A DNA stretch of 64,000 nucleotides from Candidatus Zixiibacteriota bacterium (GTDB taxonomy: Bacteria > Zixibacteria > MSB-5A5 > GN15 > PGXB01), in NCBI GenBank assembly GCA_026397505.1, contig JAPLUR010000061.1, positions 1 to 64,000 of the forward strand. The letters run 5' to 3'. This document shows positions 6,023-54,153 of this stretch, piece by piece. Every line of letters begins with the position of its first letter. The stretch's first letter is position 1. The notes under the pieces were generated by a model, which saw only the letters and a program-made list of their open reading frames with translations, was not told where the DNA came from and made no database searches. A program made the position numbers and the translations under genes.

Positions 6023-9000
6023 TTAGAAACGGATCTCGACCCAGATGCGGAGTTCCCTGAGATGCGAGTTTCTCCGATTGGCAGCGTCCTTGCTATCCTG
6101 CCAGCGGGCGCTCAAGCCGCCTTTGATCTGGGATGAGAAGGTATACTGTATATCCGGTGTCACCTGAAATTCGGAACGCTCGCCCGAGGATACGAGCGGA
6201 TTATCGCCGCTGGCGCTCTGGTCTCTGTCCTTGCGCAGCGAAACACTGACGGAGATGGTCATCGTGGAATTGAATTTCAGCCGGCCAAGCAGCGGAAATC
6301 TGATACCGGACGGCGAGGTAAAGGAGTACTTGGTGGAAGCCGACAGCGAAGTGGAAGTATTTCTTCTGCGTGTGGTCAATGTCCCGGTCTGGGAATTAAT
6401 TACTTTCTCATCGGTAATCTGCTTATCGGTATTAACATTAACCTGCATTCCCCTCATGATGTCAAAGGTGAATGAAATCAACGGCCGGTAGGCGGTAGAA
6501 GTCCGGTCCATTGATTTGAATCCGGTCTGAAGGTTGATGTTTTCAGACCTGGAACGACTGTAACCGGTGCGCGGCGAGAAGCGGCTGATAATCGGATTGA
6601 ATAGCCTGAAAGTGGTCATCGTTCGGATGTTGAAGCGGATATCGGGAAAAGTCGTGCTCACCGACTTCTGCGGATTCATGGCTTTGACGAGGTCCTGATC
6701 TATTTTACGGTTGAAGCTGACATCAGCTTTGAGACCGCCAAAAAGCTCGGTTCCTGAACCAAATGAATACCCGGTGCTTTTGTTGCTGAAAGCCGACTGT
6801 CCTGTTCCGGCGGCCCCGGAATTGATCGGTACGCCTACCTGATCGGTGAGGCCGAACCGGAACTTGAGTTGTGCTCTTTGCCGCAAACCAATAAAAGAGT
6901 AATTGTACCTCTCATTGAATTCATAGCTTATCGGATTTATCCAGCCGGTCAGGAAACCCATAATCCGGGTAAAGGGATTAATAATCCCGCCCAGGGGATT
7001 CTTCTTCTCGACTTTTATCACCTTCCCTTTTGTCCCCTGCGAGCCGATCGGTGAAGATTTCTTCCGGGAAGACTGGCCAAAGAGTTTTTGCAGATTCAGG
7101 TCTCCGCTGACACCATAGGACTTGGAGGCGGCGACATTACGAGTAGAATCATTCGCCCCGATGTCTTCACGATAGGCGGCCGAATAATTGAACTTATGCG
7201 TAAAAAATGGAACAATATTCGGTGTATAACTGCTCCCGAAGCTTTCGTTGAAACTGGTCTCGCGGCCCAGTTTCAACTTCATGGGATTGAAACTGAAAGC
7301 CACCGTCTCCGGATCGCTCATATCCCGTCGCGTATCCATGCCATAATTGGCCGATAAATTATCGGCAATCTTGTAGCTTCCCCGGAAAGTGCCGCGAAAA
7401 TCGCGTGTAAGATTATCGGTTCGGGAACCGCTGGAGTTTTCGGAAAGCCGGAAAGTTCGATCCAGGTCCGCCGAGAAATTATAGGAGTTGGGGAAAAAAT
7501 AGAAGCGGTTGTCGCGCAATTTACTCAGAAGTGGAACCGGTTTGGTCCAGAAAAATGGCTTAATATAAGGCACTTTAGCGATACTGTAATCGGCCCGGCC
7601 GCCGATGTGGTAGTTCTCCATCAAAGATACGGGAGTGGAAGGAGAAGTAGATTCGGTCCGGTTATATGAGAAATTAGCCTTGACTTTATTGAGGATAAGA
7701 GTAAACAGGGGATTCCAGGTCTTTTTATTGAAGCTCTCCGACAGAGTAAATCCCTTGCTCACGCTTATAGAACTCTCGGCGTCGCGTAGTTCCTTGGGAA
7801 GGATGATATCGGTTCCGAAGCGCAGAAGAGGAACATCGACGTTCTTACTATATCTCAGGGAGACCGGCAGGCTGGCTCCCAATGAACGAGGGAGGAATTT
7901 GTCCAGACCGAAATTGATACTGAAGTTATAACCAGTATTGGTGCGACCGCTTCCCAGGTTATCGGACGACCCGCCGCGGGTCGAGGTGGACAGCCCCCGG
8001 AAAAAGCTGTTTTTATAAGTATAGCCGGCACTGTAAGTAAACAAGTCGGCCACATTGCCGCTGACGGAGATCCGGCCGGCGAAACCGACATCGCGTCTGA
8101 CGCCGGTCAGGCGCAATTCATCGACCCAGACATCGCCGGTGGGTGCGGCCATGGAATCCAGGTTAATCACCCCCATGGCCACATATTTAACCTGCGTCAG
8201 TCTGGGGAGGCCATAAATCCGATATTTGCCGGCGACCGTATCCACCCGAGGATTTGTGCCGGGGTGATTCTGATTATAGTATTCCTTAAGACCGGTAATC
8301 TCATTGAAATCAATTTTCACGGCGTTCAGGGGGCTCCAGCCGGGTTCAAGCATGGTACGATACTCATAGAAGTTGGCGCTGTCCTGCCCGACCCGGAAGA
8401 AAAAGAAGAGATTTCTGACATCCGAGGCACCGTGAACGTACATTTCCAATGTCCGGTACCCCACCAGACTGGGAGTATCGTACAGCAGCCGGTGAACCAA
8501 ACCGGTGTCATTTACTTTCAGACTGTCGTAATGCAGCAGAAGCGACTGTTCCGGTTCCTGATAGCCGGTGCTCTTGTTATAATTGCCACTGACCCCCGAG
8601 GGAGGGAAATAATTATCATTTTCGGTGTTGATGACCGCTACGTTGAACCGGCTGGAAGTAGGGGAGGTCTTGTCGGCTCTGAGCAGTGTGTCATCCCAAT
8701 TGGACTGAATCAGATCGGCGGCCGCCAGCCCGATCTTCACACTGTCGCCCGTCAGAGATTCAACCCAGAGTCGGGCATAAGTAATGCTGGTCCAGGAAGG
8801 ATTGCCGACCAAATCGTCGATTGATGCGGTATCCTTGATCGGGATGCGGAAGGTGCGCCAGCCGTTATGCTCGGTGCTGTCAACCAGGAAAGCGGTGTCA
8901 GCCAGATTAATCCTATAAGAGAAATATCGATTGTACCTATCAGCAGTTTGGTTGAGATTGAGATCTTCGGCGTCCGGTTTGCCGTTATCGGTCTGTTCCA

Positions 9001-11749
9001 GACTGCCGTTTCCTTCGGTTCCGTTGATGAAACGATAATCATCGGGGGCGTCGGTGGAATTATAGTACCAATTGTCCCCATTGGGATCAAGATTATCGGG
9101 CCTATACCCGTCTTCGGACCGATCGGGCTGACCGTCAAGCCCAATATCCTCGCCGTCATCGAGAATATTATTCCTTTGTCCGCTACGCGTGCTATCCTCG
9201 GTGTCGAGCACGCCATTTCCATTGACATCCTCGGAGATTTCTCCCAGATCAATATGCAGGACTCCCCGCTGGCCAAATACTCGCAGCTCGAGCAATTGAG
9301 CCCGTTCCTGGTTGGCGGAACCGGATGGCATATAACGCATGACTCCCCCCCAGGCGGCATTGGGATCATGGGAGACCGAATCGGAAAAATCGCCGCCGGC
9401 GCGACGATCGTATGTATGCGGTTCGAAGACAAGCCAGAGAGTCTGGGTCCCCTGCTGATTGGGGTCCCTGTCCCGTTTCCAAATATCGGTCGTCGCAATC
9501 TCTTTGTAGGGATTGTACCAGATCAATTTGGCCCGAACATTGTATGTTCCCAGGCCAATCGGTTTTGACGCCAGGGTCCAGATCTGGCGCATAAGCCCCA
9601 ACGAATAGGAATCGCGACTTCCTTCAAAATCATCAAGATAAGCCACCCCATCGACATTGGGATTCGGATAGGATTGGGCAACCTCGCCCGAAATGGCCAT
9701 ACTTGAACCGGCCTCGGAATAATAGAGCGGGAGCAGGTTGGCGGCCTTGGTCAGGAAATTCGGTTTCAGCCGGAAACTGGCGTCGGCATCCCAAACCATC
9801 ATGCGGGCCGTCTCCTGGCCTATTTTCGGTTTTCGGTCGGTAGCCTTATCGGACTTATAGAGGAAAGTCGAACCGATTCTCAGATCGTCGCTGACTTCAT
9901 ATTCGCCGCGAATTCCGAAAAGGGTTTTCTTTTCGGCCGAAATAAAGGGTGAATATTCATAATCGATATTTACATTGGCATTGGGGTCAATTTGCTCCGG
10001 CTTCTTAAAAGTCACCACGCCGAAATCATATTGAATTTCGTAGTCCTGGTCTCGAATAAGCTGCTGGCCATCAACCGTGATTCTCTCGGAACCCTCGATT
10101 ATATTCGGCTTGCCCAAATTGATCTGGGTTGCCCGGCTACGACTCGAGACCTCGATATAATAAGTACTTGCCGTTACCGGTTTCTCGGTTGCGCTGGCAT
10201 AATTGTAGATATCCGGAACAGTTACAGCCAGAGGCGGAGAATAAGCAGTTTCAGGGGCAAAGGGACGGCGATCGGGGAAGATAAGAAGCCCGTGCTTCTG
10301 ATTTATCAATTCGTTGTTGTAGACATCAACCAGGCCATCCGCCAAGGTATCACCTGCCCTCGTGGATTTATCGAGGCCGAAAATCCTCACATACAAAGGA
10401 CCCTCCTGATGTTCCAAATTCGCATCAGATCCTTCGGTGTTGGCCGGTCCTTTGAAGATTTTTATTTCCAGACCTTCAAGCGGAATATTAACCATTCCGA
10501 GGTAGTACACATTCCGCCACAAGTATTCCCATGTTCTGAGACTTGAATCGAACTTCCGGCTCCTGAGCAGTTTGAGCCTGTAAGTGGTGGACGAAATATC
10601 GCCAATCGTATCGACGGTGTTATCGCTGTGCCTGATTATCATCCAGACGCCGATTTCATAGTTGGTTCCGGCGTTGGGAACATCAAATATAACATAAGGT
10701 ACTTTCCCTCCCTCCAGCAGGGGAGGGACTTTCAACATGAAAGCTTCATAAGTTTCGGGATCAACCCTCTTGACTAAAGCGATGCAGTTTTCAAGACTAT
10801 CATCCAGGGTATCCTTGATATTACCATACATCCGAGCCGAGGTGCCGTCGGGTTCGCTATAGGGATTATTAACCGCGGCATAGATATCGAGTTTTAGGAT
10901 GCTGTCTCCCGTTCTGAAATCCTGGGCCAGGCCCAGATCATAAATTTTGCCGTTGGCATATTGATAGTCGCGGATATATTCCTTTTTGGCACTGGCGCCG
11001 GCGGTCAGGGAGTTTCGCTCGGTGGTTCCTTTTTCCTGGCTGGCGATGGCCGTCAGGGTAAGATTTCCCAGCTGGGCGGCGGTCTTAATGCCGAATAATC
11101 CCTGAATACGAGAGGAATACCCCACGAATTGAGTATTGGGCAGGGAGAGAGTCGTATTGCCGGCCTCGATGCTCTTAATGACATCATCCTCATCGCCTTT
11201 GTATCTTAGAATAATGCGGTTGGCCAGAGGGATATCGGTTTTGGAATCCTGAGAGACAGAAACCGAAATCTTGGTGCCGATAGTTCCATTGATATCAAAA
11301 CGGGATATCTGCTCCATATTCAGTGAAGGGAATTTATTCTGGCGAAAGCCACCGCTGGAAGCCCGATCATCCCATGTGGATCGTCCGGAAAAAGAAATGA
11401 GGTGATATCCCGAAACCTTAAGCCCCGCGCCCCCCTCACCAAAAAGAGATTCAATCGCTTTTGATTTCAGCGGAATATTAAGGGAAAGAAGCCCGCCCTC
11501 TTTCTGCCTCTGTTCCTTGGATAAGGCTCGAGAGCTGCTCTCCTGCAGTTTCTGGCTCAGGGTCAGTTGCCGGCGGTAATCCAGAAAAGCCCGGGCATCA
11601 ACCGACCGCGGGGTATATTCGTAAGCATACTCTCCGGATTTATAGTAATGGCCGGTGAAAGTGAGAGTGTTATTTTCAAAATCAGAGCGGGCGACGCGCA
11701 ACGGGGTCGAATAAGGGCGGGCGAATTTCGGTAAAGGTCGCTCACTCAT
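6023..11749 (-). CDS. sprA: SprA-type outer-membrane protein (type 9 secretion translocon family)
   Basis: At least 1908 residues. In Flavobacterium SprA is the giant outer-membrane channel of the type 9 secretion system and is needed for gliding. Sequence support: the segment EAGNTTLSLPNTQFVG...LFGIKT, the phrase AYLDDFEGSRDSYSLG, a long Asp/Asn-rich insertion (DVNGNGVLDTEDS...), repeated beta-strand-like stretches, and a C-terminus ending in VEIRF, typical of a beta-barrel. The family's best-known members are longer (about 2400 residues). The ATG at 11749 is the first normal start, but it lies after the signal peptide: the frame stays open for 168 more bases and encodes a good signal sequence. 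It follows murB closely and is the last gene of the recG unit. No other type 9 secretion gene is visible in the window. Confidence 0.85.
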   Translation of the reverse strand: MSERPLPKFARPYSTPLRVARSDFENNTLTFTGHYYKSGEYAYEYTPRSVDARAFLDYRRQLTLSQKLQESSSRALSKEQRQKEGGLLSLNIPLKSKAIESLFGEGGAGLKVSGYHLISFSGRSTWDDRASSGGFRQNKFPSLNMEQISRFDINGTIGTKISVSVSQDSKTDIPLANRIILRYKGDEDDVIKSIEAGNTTLSLPNTQFVGYSSRIQGLFGIKTAAQLGNLTLTAIASQEKGTTERNSLTAGASAKKEYIRDYQYANGKIYDLGLAQDFRTGDSILKLDIYAAVNNPYSEPDGTSARMYGNIKDTLDDSLENCIALVKRVDPETYEAFMLKVPPLLEGGKVPYVIFDVPNAGTNYEIGVWMIIRHSDNTVDTIGDISSTTYRLKLLRSRKFDSSLRTWEYLWRNVYYLGMVNIPLEGLEIKIFKGPANTEGSDANLEHQEGPLYVRIFGLDKSTRAGDTLADGLVDVYNNELINQKHGLLIFPDRRPFAPETAYSPPLAVTVPDIYNYASATEKPVTASTYYIEVSSRSRATQINLGKPNIIEGSERITVDGQQLIRDQDYEIQYDFGVVTFKKPEQIDPNANVNIDYEYSPFISAEKKTLFGIRGEYEVSDDLRIGSTFLYKSDKATDRKPKIGQETARMMVWDADASFRLKPNFLTKAANLLPLYYSEAGSSMAISGEVAQSYPNPNVDGVAYLDDFEGSRDSYSLGLMRQIWTLASKPIGLGTYNVRAKLIWYNPYKEIATTDIWKRDRDPNQQGTQTLWLVFEPHTYDRRAGGDFSDSVSHDPNAAWGGVMRYMPSGSANQERAQLLELRVFGQRGVLHIDLGEISEDVNGNGVLDTEDSTRSGQRNNILDDGEDIGLDGQPDRSEDGYRPDNLDPNGDNWYYNSTDAPDDYRFINGTEGNGSLEQTDNGKPDAEDLNLNQTADRYNRYFSYRINLADTAFLVDSTEHNGWRTFRIPIKDTASIDDLVGNPSWTSITYARLWVESLTGDSVKIGLAAADLIQSNWDDTLLRADKTSPTSSRFNVAVINTENDNYFPPSGVSGNYNKSTGYQEPEQSLLLHYDSLKVNDTGLVHRLLYDTPSLVGYRTLEMYVHGASDVRNLFFFFRVGQDSANFYEYRTMLEPGWSPLNAVKIDFNEITGLKEYYNQNHPGTNPRVDTVAGKYRIYGLPRLTQVKYVAMGVINLDSMAAPTGDVWVDELRLTGVRRDVGFAGRISVSGNVADLFTYSAGYTYKNSFFRGLSTSTRGGSSDNLGSGRTNTGYNFSINFGLDKFLPRSLGASLPVSLRYSKNVDVPLLRFGTDIILPKELRDAESSISVSKGFTLSESFNKKTWNPLFTLILNKVKANFSYNRTESTSPSTPVSLMENYHIGGRADYSIAKVPYIKPFFWTKPVPLLSKLRDNRFYFFPNSYNFSADLDRTFRLSENSSGSRTDNLTRDFRGTFRGSYKIADNLSANYGMDTRRDMSDPETVAFSFNPMKLKLGRETSFNESFGSSYTPNIVPFFTHKFNYSAAYREDIGANDSTRNVAASKSYGVSGDLNLQKLFGQSSRKKSSPIGSQGTKGKVIKVEKKNPLGGIINPFTRIMGFLTGWINPISYEFNERYNYSFIGLRQRAQLKFRFGLTDQVGVPINSGAAGTGQSAFSNKSTGYSFGSGTELFGGLKADVSFNRKIDQDLVKAMNPQKSVSTTFPDIRFNIRTMTTFRLFNPIISRFSPRTGYSRSRSENINLQTGFKSMDRTSTAYRPLISFTFDIMRGMQVNVNTDKQITDEKVINSQTGTLTTRRRNTSTSLSASTKYSFTSPSGIRFPLLGRLKFNSTMTISVSVSLRKDRDQSASGDNPLVSSGERSEFQVTPDIQYTFSSQIKGGLSARWQDSKDAANRRNSHLRELRIWVEIRF

Positions 11750-31655: not shown

Positions 31656-33986
31656 TTAGAGCCAATCAAACCAGTCCCAGAACTCGGTTCGAATGGTCCG
31701 AAGGAATTTTCGGTAAATATGGTAACTTATCGGCCGCTGACCACAATAGACATTGGCCACACCGGTCATTCCCGGCTTGAGCGTGTGACCCTGATTGGGA
31801 ATGCGGCAGGAAACCTGCACTATCCGGTTGCCCTTGGCATCGATTTCCACTTTGCTGTTGATACGAGATATCTCGCCATAAAAATTAAGCGCGGGGAAAC
31901 TGCGGACTTTGAATTTCACCTTTTGCCCCACGGTGATGTCGGCCAGTTCTTTTTCGGAGAGGGTGATGCGTGCTTCCATGGTATCCAGATTGGCGATCTC
32001 GCAAACTGTCTCGCCGGTATCGACCCTGATGATGATACCATTGATGCTGGTCTTTATCTCCGAAGATTGCTGTCTCTGCGAATGAAACTCCATCTGGCTT
32101 TTGAGGCGAACAATTTCAGCCTCCTTAGCTTTTATCTCTTCCGGACGGGAGCCGGCTTTGAGCATCCAGAGCTTGCTTCGGGCTGCCTTATGGCGGGCAT
32201 CCCAGATCATCGAATCGGCCTGAGCGTCCTCCCAGGCCTGTTTTGATATGAGGTTTTTATCCAGCATTTCATTCATCCGCTGAAGGTTCTGAGTGGAAAG
32301 TCTCAATTGCGCTTCCATTTCATTGAAATTATTGCGCGCTTGCTCAATTTCCTGCGGGCGCGGCCCCTGTTTTAGAAGGGACAATTGCTCTTCAGCTTCT
32401 TTAAAAAGGGCGGAATATTCATTCACCAATTGCGCGGTCTGGGTGTTGACCAGGCGGGCTACAACCTGACCGGCTATCACCGTATCTCCACTCGTCACAA
32501 GAGGCAAGAGACGAGTGGTGGCGTAATCTCCGGTAAAGGAACTGATTTCTCTCTGCTGACCGGCGAAGCGATTATCGACATCATAATGAATCAACTCGGC
32601 ATAGCCGGCGCTATTGTATTTAAGAAGCAAAGACTGCAAAGGGTTCAGAACCAGCTCCCCTTTTACCCGCAGTTGCCATCGACCCAGAAAAATGAACAGG
32701 ATTATAATAACCAGAAACGCCAGGATTCCGATCCTCACCGGCCATCTTCTGAAGATTCCAGATTTTGCTCTTACCAGTTCGCCGGTACCTTTTGCTGCAT
32801 CCATAATAATATTCCTGAACAGAAAAACCAAAATGGCGGCGAATATCAAAAAGCCGGTGCCGCCCAGCCGGGACACCAGAAACTTCCCCACCAGCAGGAA
32901 GAAGTATCCCAATACAAAGACAATGTATATAAATGATAAAAGGCCATAATAAAAATAGATTCTGCGTTCCCGGTAGGAAAAATTTTCCGAGTCGGCGTGG
33001 GAACCCAGGAATAAGCGCCTGAATTTATCCCGCCAATATTTCCCCGCCTTCTTGCGCAAATTGGGGATTTCGAGATAATCGCTGAGGAGATAATACCCGT
33101 CGTACCGCAAGAGGGGGTTGAAATTGAAAAGGGAGGCAATCCCGGCAAAGGAAAGCGCGGCCAGGGAGATTTGGTTTATCAGAGTATCCGAGGCCGTCAC
33201 CCTCCAGGCAATAACCGCCAGAGCCCAGATGAAGAGCTGAAAAAAGCCGCCGGAAAAGGAGACCCATAGTTTTTTGGCTTTTTCCGTGAATAGCCAGGCG
33301 TCACTGACATTGCAGTAGAAGGCGGGCTGGAAATAAAGAAGCAGGAAACCTATATCCCGCACCTCGCCGCCGTAATAGGTGCAGGTCAGGCCGTGGGCGA
33401 ATTCATGCAAGACGACAATGCTGAACATGGTTATATAGAACACGACTATTCCGCCGAAATTGAACAGCCCGGCGAAATCTTCAGCCAGTTCTCTGGTATT
33501 ATAAAGAGTAATCAATAGCGAAAAAAACATCAGGATAATTGCGATCCAGACGAACTGTCGGGTGAAAAAGAAATGCACCGGTCGTGATAGGCGGGTGAAT
33601 AAGCGTCCGGGATTGATCGCTTTCAGTTTGATAAAGAGGAGCCTTCGGAAAAGCGTCTGGTTTCTATCGCGTGAGGCCAGATGTTGCTGCCTGAGAAGCT
33701 CCTTCCGGGTCAGTTCATTATCGAGAAAGCAGAGCCGCTGCAATTCTCCGATGAAGGCATTGACGGTTTCATCATCAAGTTCGACCTGAAATTTCGATTT
33801 GAAAATGGCCGCTATCTCGGGGATGGTCTTGATCCCGTCAAAGTTCGATATGATGAAATATTCCGGTTCACCGACCTTGAAAAAGGCGTTGGTTATGGGA
33901 TCTTTGATGACATAATACTTGGAGCCATCGCCGATGACATTCTCTTTGGTTATCAGATCATCCCTGATTTTGGGCGTCGTATCCAT
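31656..33986 (-). CDS. PqqD-like / M50 site-2 protease / HlyD-like fusion membrane protein
   Basis: About 776 residues in three parts. Residues 1-95 resemble a PqqD-type peptide-binding domain. Residues 140-445 form a multi-pass membrane domain with the zinc motif HEFAH at 194-198 and the second ligand site NPLLRYDG at 290-297, marks of M50 intramembrane proteases. Residues 455-765 look like a HlyD/membrane-fusion adaptor: a barrel-sandwich half, a coiled coil rich in Gln/Glu, then VRVDTGETVCEIANLDTM and TLKPGMTGVANV. This set occurs near modified-peptide export systems, where PqqD-like domains hold a leader peptide. No maturase or ABC exporter is next to it. The ATG at 33986 follows AGGCAGAG and the promoter at 34020; a TTG at 34004 is the alternative. 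Confidence 0.75.
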   Translation of the reverse strand: MDTTPKIRDDLITKENVIGDGSKYYVIKDPITNAFFKVGEPEYFIISNFDGIKTIPEIAAIFKSKFQVELDDETVNAFIGELQRLCFLDNELTRKELLRQQHLASRDRNQTLFRRLLFIKLKAINPGRLFTRLSRPVHFFFTRQFVWIAIILMFFSLLITLYNTRELAEDFAGLFNFGGIVVFYITMFSIVVLHEFAHGLTCTYYGGEVRDIGFLLLYFQPAFYCNVSDAWLFTEKAKKLWVSFSGGFFQLFIWALAVIAWRVTASDTLINQISLAALSFAGIASLFNFNPLLRYDGYYLLSDYLEIPNLRKKAGKYWRDKFRRLFLGSHADSENFSYRERRIYFYYGLLSFIYIVFVLGYFFLLVGKFLVSRLGGTGFLIFAAILVFLFRNIIMDAAKGTGELVRAKSGIFRRWPVRIGILAFLVIIILFIFLGRWQLRVKGELVLNPLQSLLLKYNSAGYAELIHYDVDNRFAGQQREISSFTGDYATTRLLPLVTSGDTVIAGQVVARLVNTQTAQLVNEYSALFKEAEEQLSLLKQGPRPQEIEQARNNFNEMEAQLRLSTQNLQRMNEMLDKNLISKQAWEDAQADSMIWDARHKAARSKLWMLKAGSRPEEIKAKEAEIVRLKSQMEFHSQRQQSSEIKTSINGIIIRVDTGETVCEIANLDTMEARITLSEKELADITVGQKVKFKVRSFPALNFYGEISRINSKVEIDAKGNRIVQVSCRIPNQGHTLKPGMTGVANVYCGQRPISYHIYRKFLRTIRTEFWDWFDWL

Positions 33987-34019
33987 TCTCTGCCTGAAAT
34001 TCAATATGACTCTGGACTA

Positions 34020-46997: not shown

Positions 46998-47074
46998 TTG
47001 CTTGGCAAAATTGATTGAGATTATTATCGTTGTTAAAAACAGGGAACGTAATGGATGGAAATGGAGGATATGGT

Positions 47075-48817
47075 ATGCTTCGTAGAATATCATTGATAGC
47101 AGCCGGTCTCCTGCTTGCCATAAATCTTTTCGGTGCTGATGAATATAAAAAATACGATCGGCCCCAGTCGGAAGATTATTTCATGAAAATCGCCTTTGTC
47201 AAAAAGCAATTAATCATGACCATCAATGGAGATGATACTACCGAAACAATGGTCTTCACCCGCGGCGATGTCAGGAAAACGGCACAGGAGGTCCTGATTA
47301 ATAATAATCTCTTTGTCGACTCCGCCGGTTTTCATCTGGCCGGAAAGGTTTATCCGGCCGATATAATCGACCGGGTCGAAGTCGAGACCACTCCCCAGGG
47401 CGAAACAAAATTGTTTTTCTTTAAGAAAGGGATCGAGACAGCTCGGCCTTATCGCAGCCACAAGAAAAATGTAATATCGCTGCTTAAAGATATCAATATC
47501 GGCAGCGAGGAGTTCATTCGCGGCGCCGTGGTCAGTTTCTGGTCGGATATCAGGGTTGATGGGGAAGTCAACGAAGAGGTCGTGGCGGTTTTTGGCACGA
47601 TTAACATCGGTGATAATGCCGTCATCCGGGGAAATGTGGCGACCGTCGGCGGGAGTGTAAGTATTGCCAAGAAAGCTACGATTTACGGCGCCATTCAATC
47701 AGCCGACACCAAGAATAAATTCGATTTCGGCCAGTGGCGGCGCTGGTATCGTCATGATCGGACATTCTCTCCGATGTTCAGCTTCAATTATAATCGAGTT
47801 GATGGCGCCGCACCGTTACTGGGAGTGCAATTTCGTGACGAGGACTCAGTGCTGCCGGAAATAAGAGTTTACGCCGGATACGCCTTCGCGTCGGATCGAT
47901 GGCGCTATCATATCGGCATTGAGCAGACCTTTTTCGAGAAATATCCTTTTACTTTCGGCGGCTCTTATTACCGGAAGCTGGCCTCCAATGACGATTTGCT
48001 GATTTCAGAGACGGAAAATACGATCTTTGCGCTTCTGGCAACCGAAGACAACAAAGATTACTTTGAGGCCGAAGGAGGTTATGGATTCGCGCGAATCAAG
48101 CTTTTCGGAAAAATCAGCTATGAACTGGGCGTTTTGGCGGAAAAATATAAATGGCTGAACGGGCACCGCAATCTTTGGTCGCTTGGCGGAGGCTCAAAGA
48201 GATTCTCGGAAAATTTTCTTTCCCTTGAAGGTCCCGAGCGGGCACTGGGCCAGGGCGAAATTGAGGGCCGCGATATTACCTCCTTAATGCAGAAAATTAG
48301 GCTTGATACCAGGAAAGACGAGGGGCTCTTCGAAGGCTCCTTCTGGGAAGGTGCGGCTGAAATAGAATGGGCGCCGGACAAATGGAACAGCGACTTTGTC
48401 TTCTCGCGCTATATGTTTGTGGTCTCGCGCCATCAAAGCCTGGGAATGCAATCCGGCCTGCTTTTGCGAGGAGCATACGGCGGTTCCGATGGTTATCTTC
48501 CGCTGCAACGCAAATTTTTCATCGGCGGCCTGGGGACGCTTTATGGTTACAAGCAAAAAGAATATATGGGGACTGAATTTTGGCTGGGCGATATCGAATA
48601 TGGAATCGAATTTCCCAATTCCGGCATGATCGGCTGGCTGTTCTATAATGTCGGGCAAATAGGCGATGGCCCGGGTCGTCTGGCCGAGGCCGAAGTCAAA
48701 CATGCGCTTGGTGTCGGCCTATCGTTCGAAGAGGATATCAGGATAAACGTGTCCAAGCGAATGGATCGTTCGGAAGCCTCACCAAAATTCTATGTTCGAC
48801 TGGAGCATCTTTTCTAA
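47075..48817 (+). CDS. Outer-membrane protein: bactofilin-like stalk plus Omp85-like beta-barrel
   Basis: About 580 residues with a signal peptide (MLRRISLIAAGLLLAINLFG). Residues 90-205 contain short repeated strands (IRGAVVSFWSDIRVDGEVNE, VAVFGTINIGDNAVIRGNVA, TVGGSVSIAKKATIYGAIQS) like the right-handed beta helix of bactofilins. The remaining 370 residues look like a beta-barrel; KFFIGGLGTLYGYKQKEYMG recalls the GG..LRGY substrate motif of Omp85/BamA, and the last residues are RLEHLF. The role is unknown: a barrel with a periplasmic oligomerising stalk fits. The ATG at 47075 is set by GGAGG seven bases before it. Confidence 0.7.
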   Translation: MLRRISLIAAGLLLAINLFGADEYKKYDRPQSEDYFMKIAFVKKQLIMTINGDDTTETMVFTRGDVRKTAQEVLINNNLFVDSAGFHLAGKVYPADIIDRVEVETTPQGETKLFFFKKGIETARPYRSHKKNVISLLKDINIGSEEFIRGAVVSFWSDIRVDGEVNEEVVAVFGTINIGDNAVIRGNVATVGGSVSIAKKATIYGAIQSADTKNKFDFGQWRRWYRHDRTFSPMFSFNYNRVDGAAPLLGVQFRDEDSVLPEIRVYAGYAFASDRWRYHIGIEQTFFEKYPFTFGGSYYRKLASNDDLLISETENTIFALLATEDNKDYFEAEGGYGFARIKLFGKISYELGVLAEKYKWLNGHRNLWSLGGGSKRFSENFLSLEGPERALGQGEIEGRDITSLMQKIRLDTRKDEGLFEGSFWEGAAEIEWAPDKWNSDFVFSRYMFVVSRHQSLGMQSGLLLRGAYGGSDGYLPLQRKFFIGGLGTLYGYKQKEYMGTEFWLGDIEYGIEFPNSGMIGWLFYNVGQIGDGPGRLAEAEVKHALGVGLSFEEDIRINVSKRMDRSEASPKFYVRLEHLF

Positions 48818-49009: not shown

Positions 49010-50851
49010 ATGGTGGACTATATGAGCATAATAGACGATGATAAAACCATAAGAATTTTGACCGGGTATACCCTGGATGATACCGATCGCGAAATTGAAT
49101 CAGACACACAAAGGCTGAAATTAAGCGATACCGGAAATGTCCTGGCGGAGATGGAGGCGGCGCTTGATGAAATCGCCGATACCAATCCGCGCATTGAATC
49201 AAACGACAGCAATACTTCGAAATCCCAGGAGGACTTGCGAGCCCTACTGGAGGTATCACTGGCGATCAATTCCTCCCTGGTTCTCGAAGATATTCTGCAG
49301 ATTGTCATGGAAAAAGCCATTGAACTCCTTGTCGCCGAAAGAGGCTTTATCATGCTTCTCGATGACAAGGGGGAGCTACAGTTCAAGACGGCGTATAATC
49401 TCTGCAAAGAATCATTGATGGAAGAGGATTTCAAGATCTCCAATTCCATTGCCAACAAAGTTGCCTCCTCCGGAAAATCGGTATATACTTCGGATGCCCA
49501 GTCGGACGAGCGATATGCCAATCAGCAATCGGTTCTGGAACTGCACCTCCGCTCCATCATGTGCGTTCCGTTGAAAATAAAAAGCAATGTCATAGGCGTG
49601 ATTTACCTGGACAACTCCTCGCAGGCCAAGATATTTCTGAAATCAGATTTATATCTTTTTGAGCTTCTGGCCCAGCAGGCGGCACATGCCATACACAACG
49701 CCAATCTCTATTACAACCTGCTGGATCTGAAACAGTACAACGAAAAGGTTGTCAACAAATCGCCGGTCGGGATTGTCGTTATTGATTCCCTCTACAATCT
49801 GGCTTCGATAAACGACGCTGCCCTGGCCGTTCTGGACAAGAACAAAGAAGGGATCAAACTGCTCAGCCCGGGTCAGGCCCCGAACAAATTCTTTGAGCTT
49901 GTTCCCGAAAGTGAAGTCACCAAATGGCGGCAGATGATTGATATCGCTTTGACCACCAACCAGCCATTTGAGGATTCCCGCTATTTCCATAACACCGGCT
50001 ATGCCGAAAAAGTCTTCTCCGTTAAGATTTCTCCCATTAACAAGCTGCCTTATGGCGGCGACGGTCTGATTCTGATTATTGAGGATATCACGGAGAAGAT
50101 TATTATGGAGAAATATGTAATTCTCTCCGAAAAGCTGGTGGCACGGGGCGAGATGGCGGCCTCTATCGGCCATGAGCTGAATAACTATTTGGCCATTATC
50201 GCCAATAATGCCGAACTCCTGTCACTGAATCTGCAGAAAAATCAGGCCGACAAAGCAAGGTATAATGCTCATCAGATCATAGAGAGCATCTCCAAGATGA
50301 AACGTTTCACCGACGGCCTGATGGATTTCTCGAAGCTCGAGACGGAAGTCATAAATTATGATATCAAGCATTTGATAGAAGATCTCCTTTTCTCCCTCAA
50401 GGCGCAGTCCCGATTTAAGAGGGTGGTTTTCTCGGTTGACCTGGGCAATAATCTCCCCAATATCCAGATTGATGTCGGGCAGATTCAGCAGGTACTCATG
50501 AATCTTCTGAACAATGCGGCCGACGCCCTGGAACAGCGGGCCAAACAGGAAGAAACGCAGGGGAACACCGGGTTTATCCACCGGATCGGGATTCAGGCTT
50601 CCTATGATGAAGCCAAGGCGGCCTTAAAGGTTTGCATCTCAGACAACGGCTGTGGCATCCCCGAGGATTCGTTACCCAAAATATTCCAGCCGCACTTCAC
50701 CACCAAAGAGACCGGGCACGGCCTCGGCCTGGCCAATTGCCGCAAGATTGTCAAGAATCATAGCGGCGAAATAACTTTGATCTCCAAAGCCAATGAGGGG
50801 ACAATCTTTACCATTTTCCTACCCAGGGATCAGGTTGATAAGATAAAGTAG
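49010..50851 (+). CDS. Soluble GAF-PAS sensor histidine kinase
   Basis: 613 residues, no membrane helix. Order: an N-terminal region with a likely coiled coil (1-75), GAF domain (about 80-235; ERGFIMLLDDKGELQFKTAY, SIMCVPLKIKSNVIGVIYLD), PAS domain (245-365), dimerisation/phosphoacceptor domain with His388 in ASIGHELNNYLAII, and a HATPase domain with the N-box NLLNNAADALEQ (Asn502), DNGCGIPED and GHGLGLANC. It senses a cytoplasmic signal and phosphorylates an unknown response regulator, which is not in the window. An SD-like AAGGAG lies 13 bases before the ATG, rather far. The kinase-TPR gene starts on the next base after its stop. Confidence 0.9.
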   Translation: MVDYMSIIDDDKTIRILTGYTLDDTDREIESDTQRLKLSDTGNVLAEMEAALDEIADTNPRIESNDSNTSKSQEDLRALLEVSLAINSSLVLEDILQIVMEKAIELLVAERGFIMLLDDKGELQFKTAYNLCKESLMEEDFKISNSIANKVASSGKSVYTSDAQSDERYANQQSVLELHLRSIMCVPLKIKSNVIGVIYLDNSSQAKIFLKSDLYLFELLAQQAAHAIHNANLYYNLLDLKQYNEKVVNKSPVGIVVIDSLYNLASINDAALAVLDKNKEGIKLLSPGQAPNKFFELVPESEVTKWRQMIDIALTTNQPFEDSRYFHNTGYAEKVFSVKISPINKLPYGGDGLILIIEDITEKIIMEKYVILSEKLVARGEMAASIGHELNNYLAIIANNAELLSLNLQKNQADKARYNAHQIIESISKMKRFTDGLMDFSKLETEVINYDIKHLIEDLLFSLKAQSRFKRVVFSVDLGNNLPNIQIDVGQIQQVLMNLLNNAADALEQRAKQEETQGNTGFIHRIGIQASYDEAKAALKVCISDNGCGIPEDSLPKIFQPHFTTKETGHGLGLANCRKIVKNHSGEITLISKANEGTIFTIFLPRDQVDKIK

Positions 50852-53800
50852 ATGGCCAGAAATTCCTTCTCTCCCGGCGGATATGAAATCATCCGCTTCC
50901 TGGGAAGCGGCGGGACGGCTCATGTTTATCTGGCCCAAAGACTCTCCGATTCGCACCTCCAGGCTCTTAAGATACCGCTCGATGACACCTCCCCATCAAG
51001 GGAAAAATTCTTGCCTCTTATTCGGCGTGAGCATGATTTAATCGGTCAATTGAGATATCCCGGTCTGGTCCGCGTATGGGGGGTAAATGAAATGGAGGCA
51101 ACTCTTCCCTTCCTGACCCTGGAATTCTGCCCCGGAGTGACTCTTGATCAAATTGGAGAGCCTGACACCAGCGAGCTTCTCCTGAATATTATTTCATCAA
51201 TAAGTATCAATCTCTATTTTTTGAGGCTGGCCGGCCTCAGTCACGGGGATCTGAAACCCCAAAATATTTTCCTTAATAATCAATTGACATCATATATCAA
51301 TGGAAATTTGAGCTACTCCAAAATCTCTGATTTCTCATTGGCCTTAAGAGATACGGAAGAAAAGGATGCCCGGCTGGGGCTTGGCACTGTTGGATATATG
51401 GCGCCGGAGACAGTCGATAGCGGCCTCCTCGACTATCGTTCCGATATTTTTTCCCTGGGTGTGATAGCCTATCGGTTGGCGACCGGAAATCATCCCTTTC
51501 TCGAAGATGAAATCGATCCGGTTCGCATCAATGCCCGGGTTAAAGAATATGATCCGCCTGCTCCCGAGACTCTGAATAGCTCTCTCCCCGGCGGTTTTTC
51601 CGATCTGGTTAAGATGATGCTGGCCAAGGAGCCTCAAAAGCGGCCGGAAAGCGGCTTCGCTATCTGCGTGATGTTGGAAAAGCTTGGGGCCGGATATCCT
51701 TTTCGCAGGGCGATCAGGCCGAAACATCTGCTCGAATTAAAGAAAGCGGATGATTGTCTATCTTTATTAAACAGGGCCCCTTTTAAACTCGAGTCGCCGA
51801 TTGTCGAGAGACTATATGATTATTCCGGCGAGGACTTGTCCAAACTAAGGAATATTCTGGAAATCAACTTTTCTTTGGGCCTTATCAGTTGGCATCAGGG
51901 TTATATCATTGTCAAAGGCGGGCCGGAGCAGATAATCTACCCCCGCCGACTGCAGGTGCAGGTGGGTAACGGTTATCGCCGGCTCAGCTATTCAGCGAAA
52001 AAGAAAGCGGTAATGGCCGCAATTCTGGGAAGTGCGGAAGCGGCGGAAACCATCGGTCTTCTGATCTCGGCAAATGAAAAAGCGTTTCTTACTCGCCCCC
52101 TTTTTTATGCCATATCGGGACAACTATCCCGGTGTACGGTCAGGCGCTTCGCTGGTTTGCTGGCCCACCTGGCCCATCATAAGGCCCCGACCAATCCGAT
52201 GGCGGCCCATCTCTACATGCGCGCCGAGGATTTGCAGGATGGGTATGCCGTTGCCTGGGATATGGTAAATGCCTTAATCGATCGGAATGAAAATGCCGGG
52301 GCTCTGGAATTGTTAAGTGCCATGGAGAAAACATGTCGGATTAAGAACGAGACGGCCAAGCTCGGCCTCGTCCTGATGAAAAGAGCCGACCTGGAAAAGA
52401 CTATTGGCGAAGCGAATTGGGCCGAGGAAACTTATCTGCAAATCATCGATCTTTACCGGGGGCAGCCCTCCGATAAACTGCTGGCCGAGACATACAAAGA
52501 TCTGGGCGACCTTTACAAAATGAAGCAGGACTATAAATCAGGTGTTGAGGCCCTCGAAAAAGCGCGGCTGATATACAGTGATATCGGAGACCAATTGGAG
52601 TTGTCACATACGCTCAACAATATCGGCAATATCCATTCTATCAGCGGCCAGATGGATAAAGCCTATAATTATTTCAGGCAGGCCTTCAGGATTCAGCGGC
52701 GGCTTGAGGCAAAATCCGATGTCGCCTCGACGCTCAACAATATGAGTTTCATTTTCTATGTCCGGGGTCGCCTTGATCGGGTCATCAGGGTCATAACTCT
52801 GTCACTCAATTTGAACCGCGAGATCGGCAACGCATTGGAGATTGCCCGGGCTCTTAATAATCGAGGATTCTTTTATAATGAAATCGGGCGATTCGACAAG
52901 GCGCTGGAAGATCTTCAGGAATCTTTGGAAATAAATCGCAAGATTGGTAACAAGAAGGAATTGCTGTTTAACCTCGACAACCTGACTCAGGTCATGATCT
53001 CCGCAGGGCGACTTAAGGAATCTTTTCAGTTCTTGAGAGAGGGCATGAATCTGGCCTCCGAACTGGCCGATATGCCTCACACCGGGGTTTTTACTGGTAA
53101 CATGGCGGTGGTTCAAAAGCGGATGGGGCACTACGGCAAAGCTATGGAGAGCGCCGCCCGGGCGGTCGCAATCGGAGAGCAACTTGATGCCAATAACGAC
53201 CATATTCTCAGTCGTATCAATCTAGCCGACCTTTATTATAGGCTGAACGATCGGGGCCGCGCTCGAAATACCATTGAAACTGCGCTGAAGCTGGCACAGG
53301 AGCGTGGTGACAAAAGAGCGCTTACATCCATCTATTCCATCCTTTCCCTTATCGATAATGATTTCTCATTGATGGAGAAAGCCGAGACGATCGCCATGGA
53401 AACCAAAGTCTTGCGCGATATCAGCCTTGTGAGATTGAAAAAGAGCGCGCTGCTGCTTCAAGCCGGGAATAATGAAAATGCTTTCCAAGTACTGAGCAGA
53501 TTGACCACCACTTTCCGGGAAGATAATCCCGATATCGAAAATGCGGGATATTTCATTTTCTTAGGCGATCACTATCTAAGCCGGGGAAATCTTCAGGAAG
53601 CGCGCACATTCCTTGAAAAGGGTTATCGTATCGCCTCCGATTCGGCTCTTCTGCCCGAAATGATAAGCGCGGCCGTCGGGATGGGCAGAATTCATACTGT
53701 GCTGCATGATTATGAGACCGCCTACGCTTATTATAAAAAAGCCATAAATGGGGTCAAAGCCATCGCTGATGATATAAAGGATGATTCGCTCCGGCAGAGT

Positions 53801-53875
53801 TTTCTATCAGATCGAAAAATCGCCTCTCTCGCTGGCGAGGTAAAAAAGCTCAGCCAACTTCTGGCCAAAAAATAA
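50852..53875 (+). CDS. Ser/Thr protein kinase fused to TPR repeats
   Basis: 1007 residues. The N-terminal 280 form a eukaryotic-like kinase: glycine loop LGSGGTAHVYLA, Lys40 (LQALK), Glu60, catalytic loop HGDLKPQN at 131-138 and DFS at 160-162, then GTVGYMAPE. The HRD Arg and DFG Gly are replaced (HGD, DFS) but both catalytic Asp remain, so activity is likely. From about residue 480 there are many TPR units, several close to consensus (LSHTLNNIGNIHSISGQMDK, ALNNRGFFYNEIGRFDKALE). No membrane segment. The start abuts the histidine kinase stop, so both are made together: two kinases of different chemistry as a pair. Substrates unknown. Confidence 0.88.
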   Translation: MARNSFSPGGYEIIRFLGSGGTAHVYLAQRLSDSHLQALKIPLDDTSPSREKFLPLIRREHDLIGQLRYPGLVRVWGVNEMEATLPFLTLEFCPGVTLDQIGEPDTSELLLNIISSISINLYFLRLAGLSHGDLKPQNIFLNNQLTSYINGNLSYSKISDFSLALRDTEEKDARLGLGTVGYMAPETVDSGLLDYRSDIFSLGVIAYRLATGNHPFLEDEIDPVRINARVKEYDPPAPETLNSSLPGGFSDLVKMMLAKEPQKRPESGFAICVMLEKLGAGYPFRRAIRPKHLLELKKADDCLSLLNRAPFKLESPIVERLYDYSGEDLSKLRNILEINFSLGLISWHQGYIIVKGGPEQIIYPRRLQVQVGNGYRRLSYSAKKKAVMAAILGSAEAAETIGLLISANEKAFLTRPLFYAISGQLSRCTVRRFAGLLAHLAHHKAPTNPMAAHLYMRAEDLQDGYAVAWDMVNALIDRNENAGALELLSAMEKTCRIKNETAKLGLVLMKRADLEKTIGEANWAEETYLQIIDLYRGQPSDKLLAETYKDLGDLYKMKQDYKSGVEALEKARLIYSDIGDQLELSHTLNNIGNIHSISGQMDKAYNYFRQAFRIQRRLEAKSDVASTLNNMSFIFYVRGRLDRVIRVITLSLNLNREIGNALEIARALNNRGFFYNEIGRFDKALEDLQESLEINRKIGNKKELLFNLDNLTQVMISAGRLKESFQFLREGMNLASELADMPHTGVFTGNMAVVQKRMGHYGKAMESAARAVAIGEQLDANNDHILSRINLADLYYRLNDRGRARNTIETALKLAQERGDKRALTSIYSILSLIDNDFSLMEKAETIAMETKVLRDISLVRLKKSALLLQAGNNENAFQVLSRLTTTFREDNPDIENAGYFIFLGDHYLSRGNLQEARTFLEKGYRIASDSALLPEMISAAVGMGRIHTVLHDYETAYAYYKKAINGVKAIADDIKDDSLRQSFLSDRKIASLAGEVKKLSQLLAKK

Positions 53876-53908
53876 GGGCAGGCCGCTGAAACATTTCAGG
53901 GCCTGCCC
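53867..53908 (-). terminator. Rho-independent terminator of the small peptide gene
   Basis: Minus strand GGGCAGGCC ... GGCCTGCCC, a 9-bp stem with a further CTGA/TCAG pairing, followed by TTATTTTTT. The T run is only on the minus strand and overlaps the end of the kinase-TPR gene. The stem starts 23 bases after the peptide stop. Confidence 0.85.
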
Positions 53909-53931
53909 GACTCATCAACTTTCAAAGGAGC

Positions 53932-54000
53932 TTATTGCCCGCCCAAGCTAAAGCCGAGAGGGGCGATTTTCTCCTCGAGTCTTTCGATGGTGAGTTTCAT
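53932..54000 (-). CDS. 22-residue peptide, unknown function
   Basis: A very short gene with all marks of expression. AGGAGG (54007-54012) lies six bases before the ATG, a promoter-like pair lies about 120 bases upstream and a strong terminator follows the stop. The peptide starts MKLTIERLEEK, so the first half is a charged amphipathic helix, continues with IAP at 12-14, and ends Phe-Ser-Leu-Gly-Gly-Gln. The LEEKIAP core and the terminal GG resemble leader parts of processed peptides, but this is only a resemblance. It could be a precursor of a modified or secreted peptide, a signal, or a small regulator. It is convergent with the kinase-TPR gene. No modifying enzyme is adjacent; the PqqD-M50-HlyD gene is about 20 kb away. 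Confidence 0.65.
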   Translation of the reverse strand: MKLTIERLEEKIAPLGFSLGGQ

Positions 54001-54033
54001 TCTCCACCTCCTCTGAAGTTGGTGTTACAACTA

Positions 54034-54048
54034 CCCGGATACTCCGGG
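54034..54048 (-). other. Small hairpin in the leader of the peptide gene
   Basis: CCCGGA-GTA-TCCGGG, a perfect 6-bp stem with a 3-base loop, 33 bases before the peptide ATG. It may stabilise the message or affect access to the SD. Confidence 0.5.
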
Positions 54049-54123
54049 CTTCTTTTAATTAAATAAATCTGTTTACCAAAAGCAAATGAAACAATTTCCC
54101 GCTAGCAATTAGTCCCTATATTT

Positions 54124-54153
54124 CTAATAAAACAGATCAAAAAAATTAGTCAA
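54124..54153 (-). promoter_or_regulatory. Promoter of the small peptide gene
   Basis: Minus strand TTGACT (54148-54153), an 18-base spacer, TATTAG (54124-54129). It implies a leader of about 115 bases. The surrounding DNA is very AT-rich. The 295 bases from 54154 to 54448 hold nothing else I can name. Confidence 0.5.

Follow-up and report, generated by a model that had tools for sequence, protein, structure and literature searches.

A 22-codon open reading frame from a Zixibacteria genome is a real gene under purifying selection. It is near-universal in this uncultured phylum (Candidatus Zixiibacteriota, a candidate phylum of the FCB group), although it lies below the usual size limits of annotation. 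Gene content and gene order point to a fusion protein of an RRE domain, an M50 protease and an HlyD adaptor as the more likely functional partner of the peptide. We consider it probable that the peptide is a precursor or leader-type peptide that this protein recognizes, cleaves and exports. The DNA that we analyzed, a stretch of 64 000 nucleotides, is called the window throughout; positions refer to its first letter.

The peptide gene and its expression signals

The following elements were located on the minus strand:

54124–54153, minus: promoter-like pair TTGACT-18-TATTAG, with boxes at 54148–54153 and 54124–54129; weak alone, TTGAC box conserved
54034–54048, minus: 5′ leader hairpin CCCGGAGTATCCGGG; kept in 10 of 12 members of the window's family
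54008–54021, minus: half on the RBS side of a long-range complementarity to the bases behind the stop codon; window's family
54007–54012, minus: Shine-Dalgarno sequence AGGAGG, 6 bases ahead of the ATG; from the sequence
53932–54000, minus: 22-codon frame MKLTIERLEEKIAPLGFSLGGQ, with the ATG at 54000–53998 and the TAA at 53934–53932; from sequence and conservation
53916–53930, minus: CTCCTTTGAAAGTTG, complementary to the RBS region, which it may mask; conserved in the window's family
53867–53908, minus: intrinsic terminator, with the stem at 53876–53908 and the U run at 53867–53875; from folding

A preliminary description had read these elements as a self-contained gene, and the AGGAGG, the frame and the small leader hairpin are all present as it described them. 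A GGAGG-type site precedes most homologues of the frame, and the hairpin recurs as CCCGG...CCGGG. The terminator, described as strong and with its U run on the minus strand, was confirmed as such: the stretch folds with −30.2 kcal/mol (z = −3.4) and none of 200 shuffles was equally stable. The promoter-like pair stood in part. It is present, and a TTGAC box is found upstream of the peptide gene in 12/12 members of the window's family, mostly at 134–160 bases (chance ∼0.23 each). Taken alone, the pair with its 9/12 matches was equalled in 72% of shuffles and is no better than chance. A near-perfect sigma-70-like pair, TTGACC-16-TATAAT, lies at 53730–53757 on the minus strand of the window, downstream of the peptide terminator and inside the kinase gene of the opposite strand.

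The pairing between the RBS region and the post-stop sequence encloses the entire peptide frame. It is kept in the window's family, with the post-stop element displaced by ∼65 bases further on in two loci (L034 and L041). In the window itself the pairing gives p = 0.135 against simple shuffles, a modest significance for a single sequence. Judging from the complementarity, it is possible that the post-stop sequence masks the RBS in this family. We rejected masking as a phylum-wide rule, as the pairing is clear in the window's family only.

Conservation of the peptide

We found a match to the peptide in 37/40 relatives searched, nearly all of them single. For the phylum, a profile built from 36 peptides was run against 132 Zixibacteria genomes at E ≤ 1; 107/132 genomes gave a match, and 104/132 remained once three weak ones (E 0.1–0.5) were dropped. 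The Zixibacteria homologues are 21–36 residues long in total and follow the consensus MxxYxLTIExLEEKIAPxGxSxGGQ, with a conserved core LEx[KR][IV]AP plus S-x-GGQ. The alignment shows no variation at L3, L8, E9, A13, P14 and S18 (numbering of the window's peptide). Across the 13-codon core of the window's family we determined pS = 0.44 and pN = 0.076, which means that selection works at the protein level. The corresponding pN/pS ratio is 0.17, compared with a phylum-wide ratio of 0.32 that is biased by choosing the core through its residue pattern; this choice matters less for the family, since its members share the same genome position.

The claim in the preliminary description that such a set of signals is hard to obtain by chance is thereby settled by conservation, and the neutral substitution pattern that it had named as speaking against the gene did not occur in the relatives. 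A chance frame with good-looking signals could draw on the promoter pair, which alone does no better than shuffles, but the same motif in homologues of 104 genomes, mostly at the same place, refutes it and leaves this explanation with practically no probability. We also weighed whether the transcript acts mainly as a regulatory RNA or as a type I toxin-antitoxin-like message, with the peptide being secondary. The strong terminator, the conserved 5′ hairpin and the RBS/post-stop pairing in the window's family would fit such a role, but selection on the amino acids speaks against it, the pairing does not hold across the phylum in general, and the peptide is not hydrophobic and is mostly encoded in one copy at a fixed place. 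An Rfam scan of the window gave no match either, and we regard this explanation as very unlikely.

A search of Pfam and NCBIfam with 36 family members yielded no credible family, in agreement with the first impression that the peptide belongs to no named one. Nothing pertinent to small proteins or RiPPs of Zixibacteria came out of our literature searches.

In the window's genome the codon pattern LExK/R-[IV]AP fits the peptide gene and its paralogue; two further DNA matches start with Phe and are devoid of the motif. The paralogue, MVKLTIERLEERIAPDNTWASLTGFHNGISLGGLS, is located on another contig (L021, 363–531; G000 contig 48) near a gene resembling a REP-type Y1 transposase and near prepilin-like genes. 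Genus g38 carries arrays of divergent copies with 2–7 matches (L101–L104; in L101 at 8153–9893, reverse-complement coordinates), in which the tail SxGGQ is changed to S[RK][YWF]G.

Outside the phylum, a pattern scan gave 35 matches. Of these, 32 are this peptide family, some under labels such as Ignavibacterium or Calditrichota, and several records with labels of this type correspond to contigs of phylum genomes. Matches in Tahibacter, Chloroflexia and Fusobacteriales sit within longer unrelated frames and were rejected. Of 105 known loci the scan pattern recovers just 54, about half, and the peptide may occur elsewhere. A tblastn search of phages with the peptide gave no match. Viral contigs contained 22 pattern matches, none in a comparable short frame, and these were judged to be chance.

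Neighbouring genes and the choice of a partner

The conserved neighbours on the plus strand and one more distant gene on the strand of the peptide are as follows:

47015–48817, plus: outer-membrane-like protein (weak DUF5686/Omp85); conserved synteny
49010–50851, plus: GAF-PAS histidine kinase; conserved synteny
50852–53875, plus: Ser/Thr kinase-TPR protein, the convergent neighbour; convergent in 64/73 loci
31659–34004, minus: fusion of a PqqD-like RRE, an M50 protease and an HlyD part, 781 residues, the proposed partner; from profiles, co-occurrence and a fold model

The fusion protein was detected in 101 of the 132 genomes. Peptide and fusion protein occur together in 97 and are both missing in 24, with the peptide alone in 7 and the fusion protein alone in 4 (odds ratio 83, Fisher p = 3e-16); these counts come from related genomes, and the Fisher value overstates the number of independent events. 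The seven genomes with the peptide and no detected fusion protein include two single-contig assemblies, G003 and G059, although these two are rated 83–84% complete. The fusion gene directly precedes the peptide gene, on the same strand, in 35/73 loci. Most members of the window's family have it ∼20–25 kb away, again on the same strand, and several families have something else as the upstream neighbour; these arrangements, like the seven genomes with the peptide alone, speak against the partnership. Genomes in which the two genes are apart showed no second peptide next to the exporter.

The convergent kinase-TPR gene suggests a different connection, namely that the peptide acts as a signal, intracellular or re-imported, which is read by the TPR region and controls the kinase, as in RRNPP systems. 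The protein carries TPR_12 and MalT-like TPRs, and repeats of these types resemble the TPRs of peptide receptors. Its adjacency is a constant synteny, and a functional connection may exist through the fixed position, but conserved synteny alone would be enough to explain it. The patterns of loss and amplification separate the two candidates. Two species, with genomes G053 and G054, are devoid of both the fusion and the peptide genes and retain the flanking genes, with a chloride-channel gene abutting the kinase gene at the site of the loss; their congener G052 keeps both. Family f8 has the peptide behind the fusion gene and no kinase next to it. Genus g38, with its peptide arrays, has the fusion protein in 3/4 genomes, and the kinase was undetected. 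Therefore the fusion protein is the likelier functional partner of the two. The peptide and the TPR protein are not kept together as an RRNPP pair would be; we rejected the kinase-TPR protein as an obligate partner and consider the kinase-signal explanation unlikely.

The metal-binding motif of the kinase reads DFS rather than DFG. D160 and S162 do not vary among 13 aligned homologues, and the other catalytic residues are intact.

Domains of the fusion protein and comparison with known peptide systems

In order to characterize the fusion protein we compared its N-terminal half with NCBIfam, where it scored 217.8 bits against daptide_HExxH (cut-off 300) and 53.6 bits against the YydH/LiaK epipeptide metalloprotease (cut-off 225). 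The protease residues are intact: neither the HExxH motif (His200, Glu201, His204) nor Asp302 varies among 13 homologues. The N-terminal domain, modelled alone, reached a pLDDT of 83. Its top structural matches are lasso synthetase B1, TbiB1 and PqqD (6jx3, Z 9.7; 5v1v, Z 9.6; 5sxy, Z 8.3), other structural rows begin near Z 8, and Foldseek gave no match at E 0.001. A sequence profile of the domain against the PDB found no clear relative, so that relatives came from the fold comparison alone. Because the top rows form one class and the daptide profile matches as well, we assign the domain as an RRE, which is predicted to fold like the leader-binding members of this class.

The daptide peptidase MpaP is described as an intramembrane enzyme that depends on an RRE and takes off the leader (PMC10036551). 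The systems of daptides (MpaP) and epipeptides (YydF with YydH/LiaK) resemble the present one, in which a short putative precursor is linked to an intramembrane M50 metalloprotease with a predicted RRE. They differ in that the protease is fused to an HlyD adaptor here and scores below both curated cut-offs. Moreover, genes for an oxidative decarboxylase, an aminotransferase, a methyltransferase or a radical SAM enzyme, as known from those systems, are not consistently linked here, as judged by eye from the neighbourhood clusters. Daptides also have an invariant C-terminal Thr, whereas the tails of the present peptides end in GGQ or are Gly-rich.

The precursor peptides PqqA and MftA (mycofactocin) are likewise very short and conserved, and their systems include a leader-binding domain of the PqqD type. 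In contrast to them, the present peptide has no conserved Tyr in its tail and no linked maturase was found. The ammosamide/lymphostin leader model (NF033737) aligns over 9 residues around LEEKIAP at 12.2 bits (cut-off 30), and it matches only one of the 36 family members.

Among the neighbourhood gene clusters we found no consistently linked maturase or other modifying enzyme; not every neighbour in these clusters was identified, and distant genes are possible. As no such enzyme is consistently linked, the genes identified around the peptide do not amount to a complete RiPP cluster, which speaks against the precursor reading. The preliminary description had suggested a signal, a regulator, or a precursor from which a modified or secreted peptide is made. 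One branch of this is supported: co-occurrence, adjacency and co-deletion with the RRE-M50-HlyD protein favor a precursor or a putatively secreted peptide, and modification gained no support.

Proposed mechanism

In the favored reading the RRE domain would hold the N-terminal half of the peptide, Y/K-x-L-x-I-E-x-LE-x-K/R-I-A-P, which alternates like a beta strand. The intramembrane M50 protease would then cut the peptide, and the HlyD part, probably together with an outer-membrane TolC-type channel, would export the peptide as a whole or just its short tail, S-x-GGQ, which is often rich in Gly. We infer binding, cleavage and export by the fusion protein, and likewise the direction of export. 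The product could be a housekeeping signal, an envelope component or a regulator of the exporter. An antibacterial toxin is disfavored because the peptide evolves slowly and is mostly encoded in a single copy.

A possible relation to LEPR-XLL proteins

A tblastn search of plasmids with the fusion protein found relatives in Proteobacteria and others, the best matches being mostly from Alphaproteobacteria. At 8 of the 14 plasmid loci examined, a large neighbouring gene carries the motif LEPRxx[LF]x[AG] near its start. All eight occurrences in the 0.47 Mb of those loci lie within those large genes; in a total of 1.96 Mb the motif is otherwise present in just two loci, both of them retrieved because they carry it. 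One of the giant proteins, two genes away from the protease, is annotated as LEPR-XLL. The association with a PqqD-M50-HlyD protein is common to the peptide (35/73 loci) and to the LEPR proteins (8/14 plasmid loci); it is seen here and lies outside the published definition of LEPR-XLL.

In seven proteobacterial loci (L221, L225, L227, L228, L229, L230 and L232) the PqqD-M50-HlyD genes adjoin further HlyD adaptors, often TolC, and giant DUF4347, cadherin, VCBS or LamG proteins, several with a LEPR start. Some Zixibacteria (L249–L253) encode large proteins with an N-terminal LEPR, LEER or LEQR, for example FELESLEERIMLS and FKLEQLEQRLLLS.

The giant secreted LEPR-XLL proteins (NF012209) resemble the peptide in having a homologous RRE-M50-HlyD partner and a core of the type E-x-LE-x-[RK]-hydrophobic. 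They differ in size, with hundreds to thousands of residues compared to 21–36, and have LL where the peptide has IAP. At the level of motifs, the LEER and LEQR forms appear as a bridge between the peptide core and LEPR-XLL. By hhalign, KLTIERLEEKI aligned with LFELESLEERI over 11 columns (P = 4.7e-4, probability 33%). None of the 36 peptide members matched NF012209 (cut-off 17 bits) at E ≤ 1, and the window's genome contains no LEPR-type match. The similarity is short and serves as a lead; it does not prove common descent. Among the papers searched LEPR-XLL is seldom mentioned, and none joins PqqD, M50, HlyD and a precursor peptide.

These large proteins bring up a further role, in which the peptide would stay with the exporter as a small regulator or subunit, for example by occupying the RRE until a larger LExR-type substrate arrives. 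Its tight association with the fusion protein and its slow evolution would be compatible with this, as would the large LEPR, LEER and LEQR proteins of some Zixibacteria. But in the window's genome the missing LEPR-type match means that no larger substrate is known there, and the conserved tail S-x-GGQ would require another explanation. We rate such a subunit role as improbable.

Starting from the reading of the peptide as an exported precursor, a broader and tentative idea, possible although we would not bet on it, is that LE-x-[KR] is the general leader code of RRE-M50-HlyD proteins. In Proteobacteria this code would launch the giant surface proteins of the LEPR-XLL type; in Zixibacteria it would stand alone in a self-contained peptide, retained throughout the history of the phylum, which would be the main cargo of the exporter and probably act as a secreted signal or as an envelope factor. 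If the RRE-M50-HlyD protein does read the LExK/R core, the orphan LEPR-XLL motif would gain a function, that is leader recognition and cleavage at the exporter. A tiny, near-universal gene of an uncultured phylum now has a concrete candidate partner.
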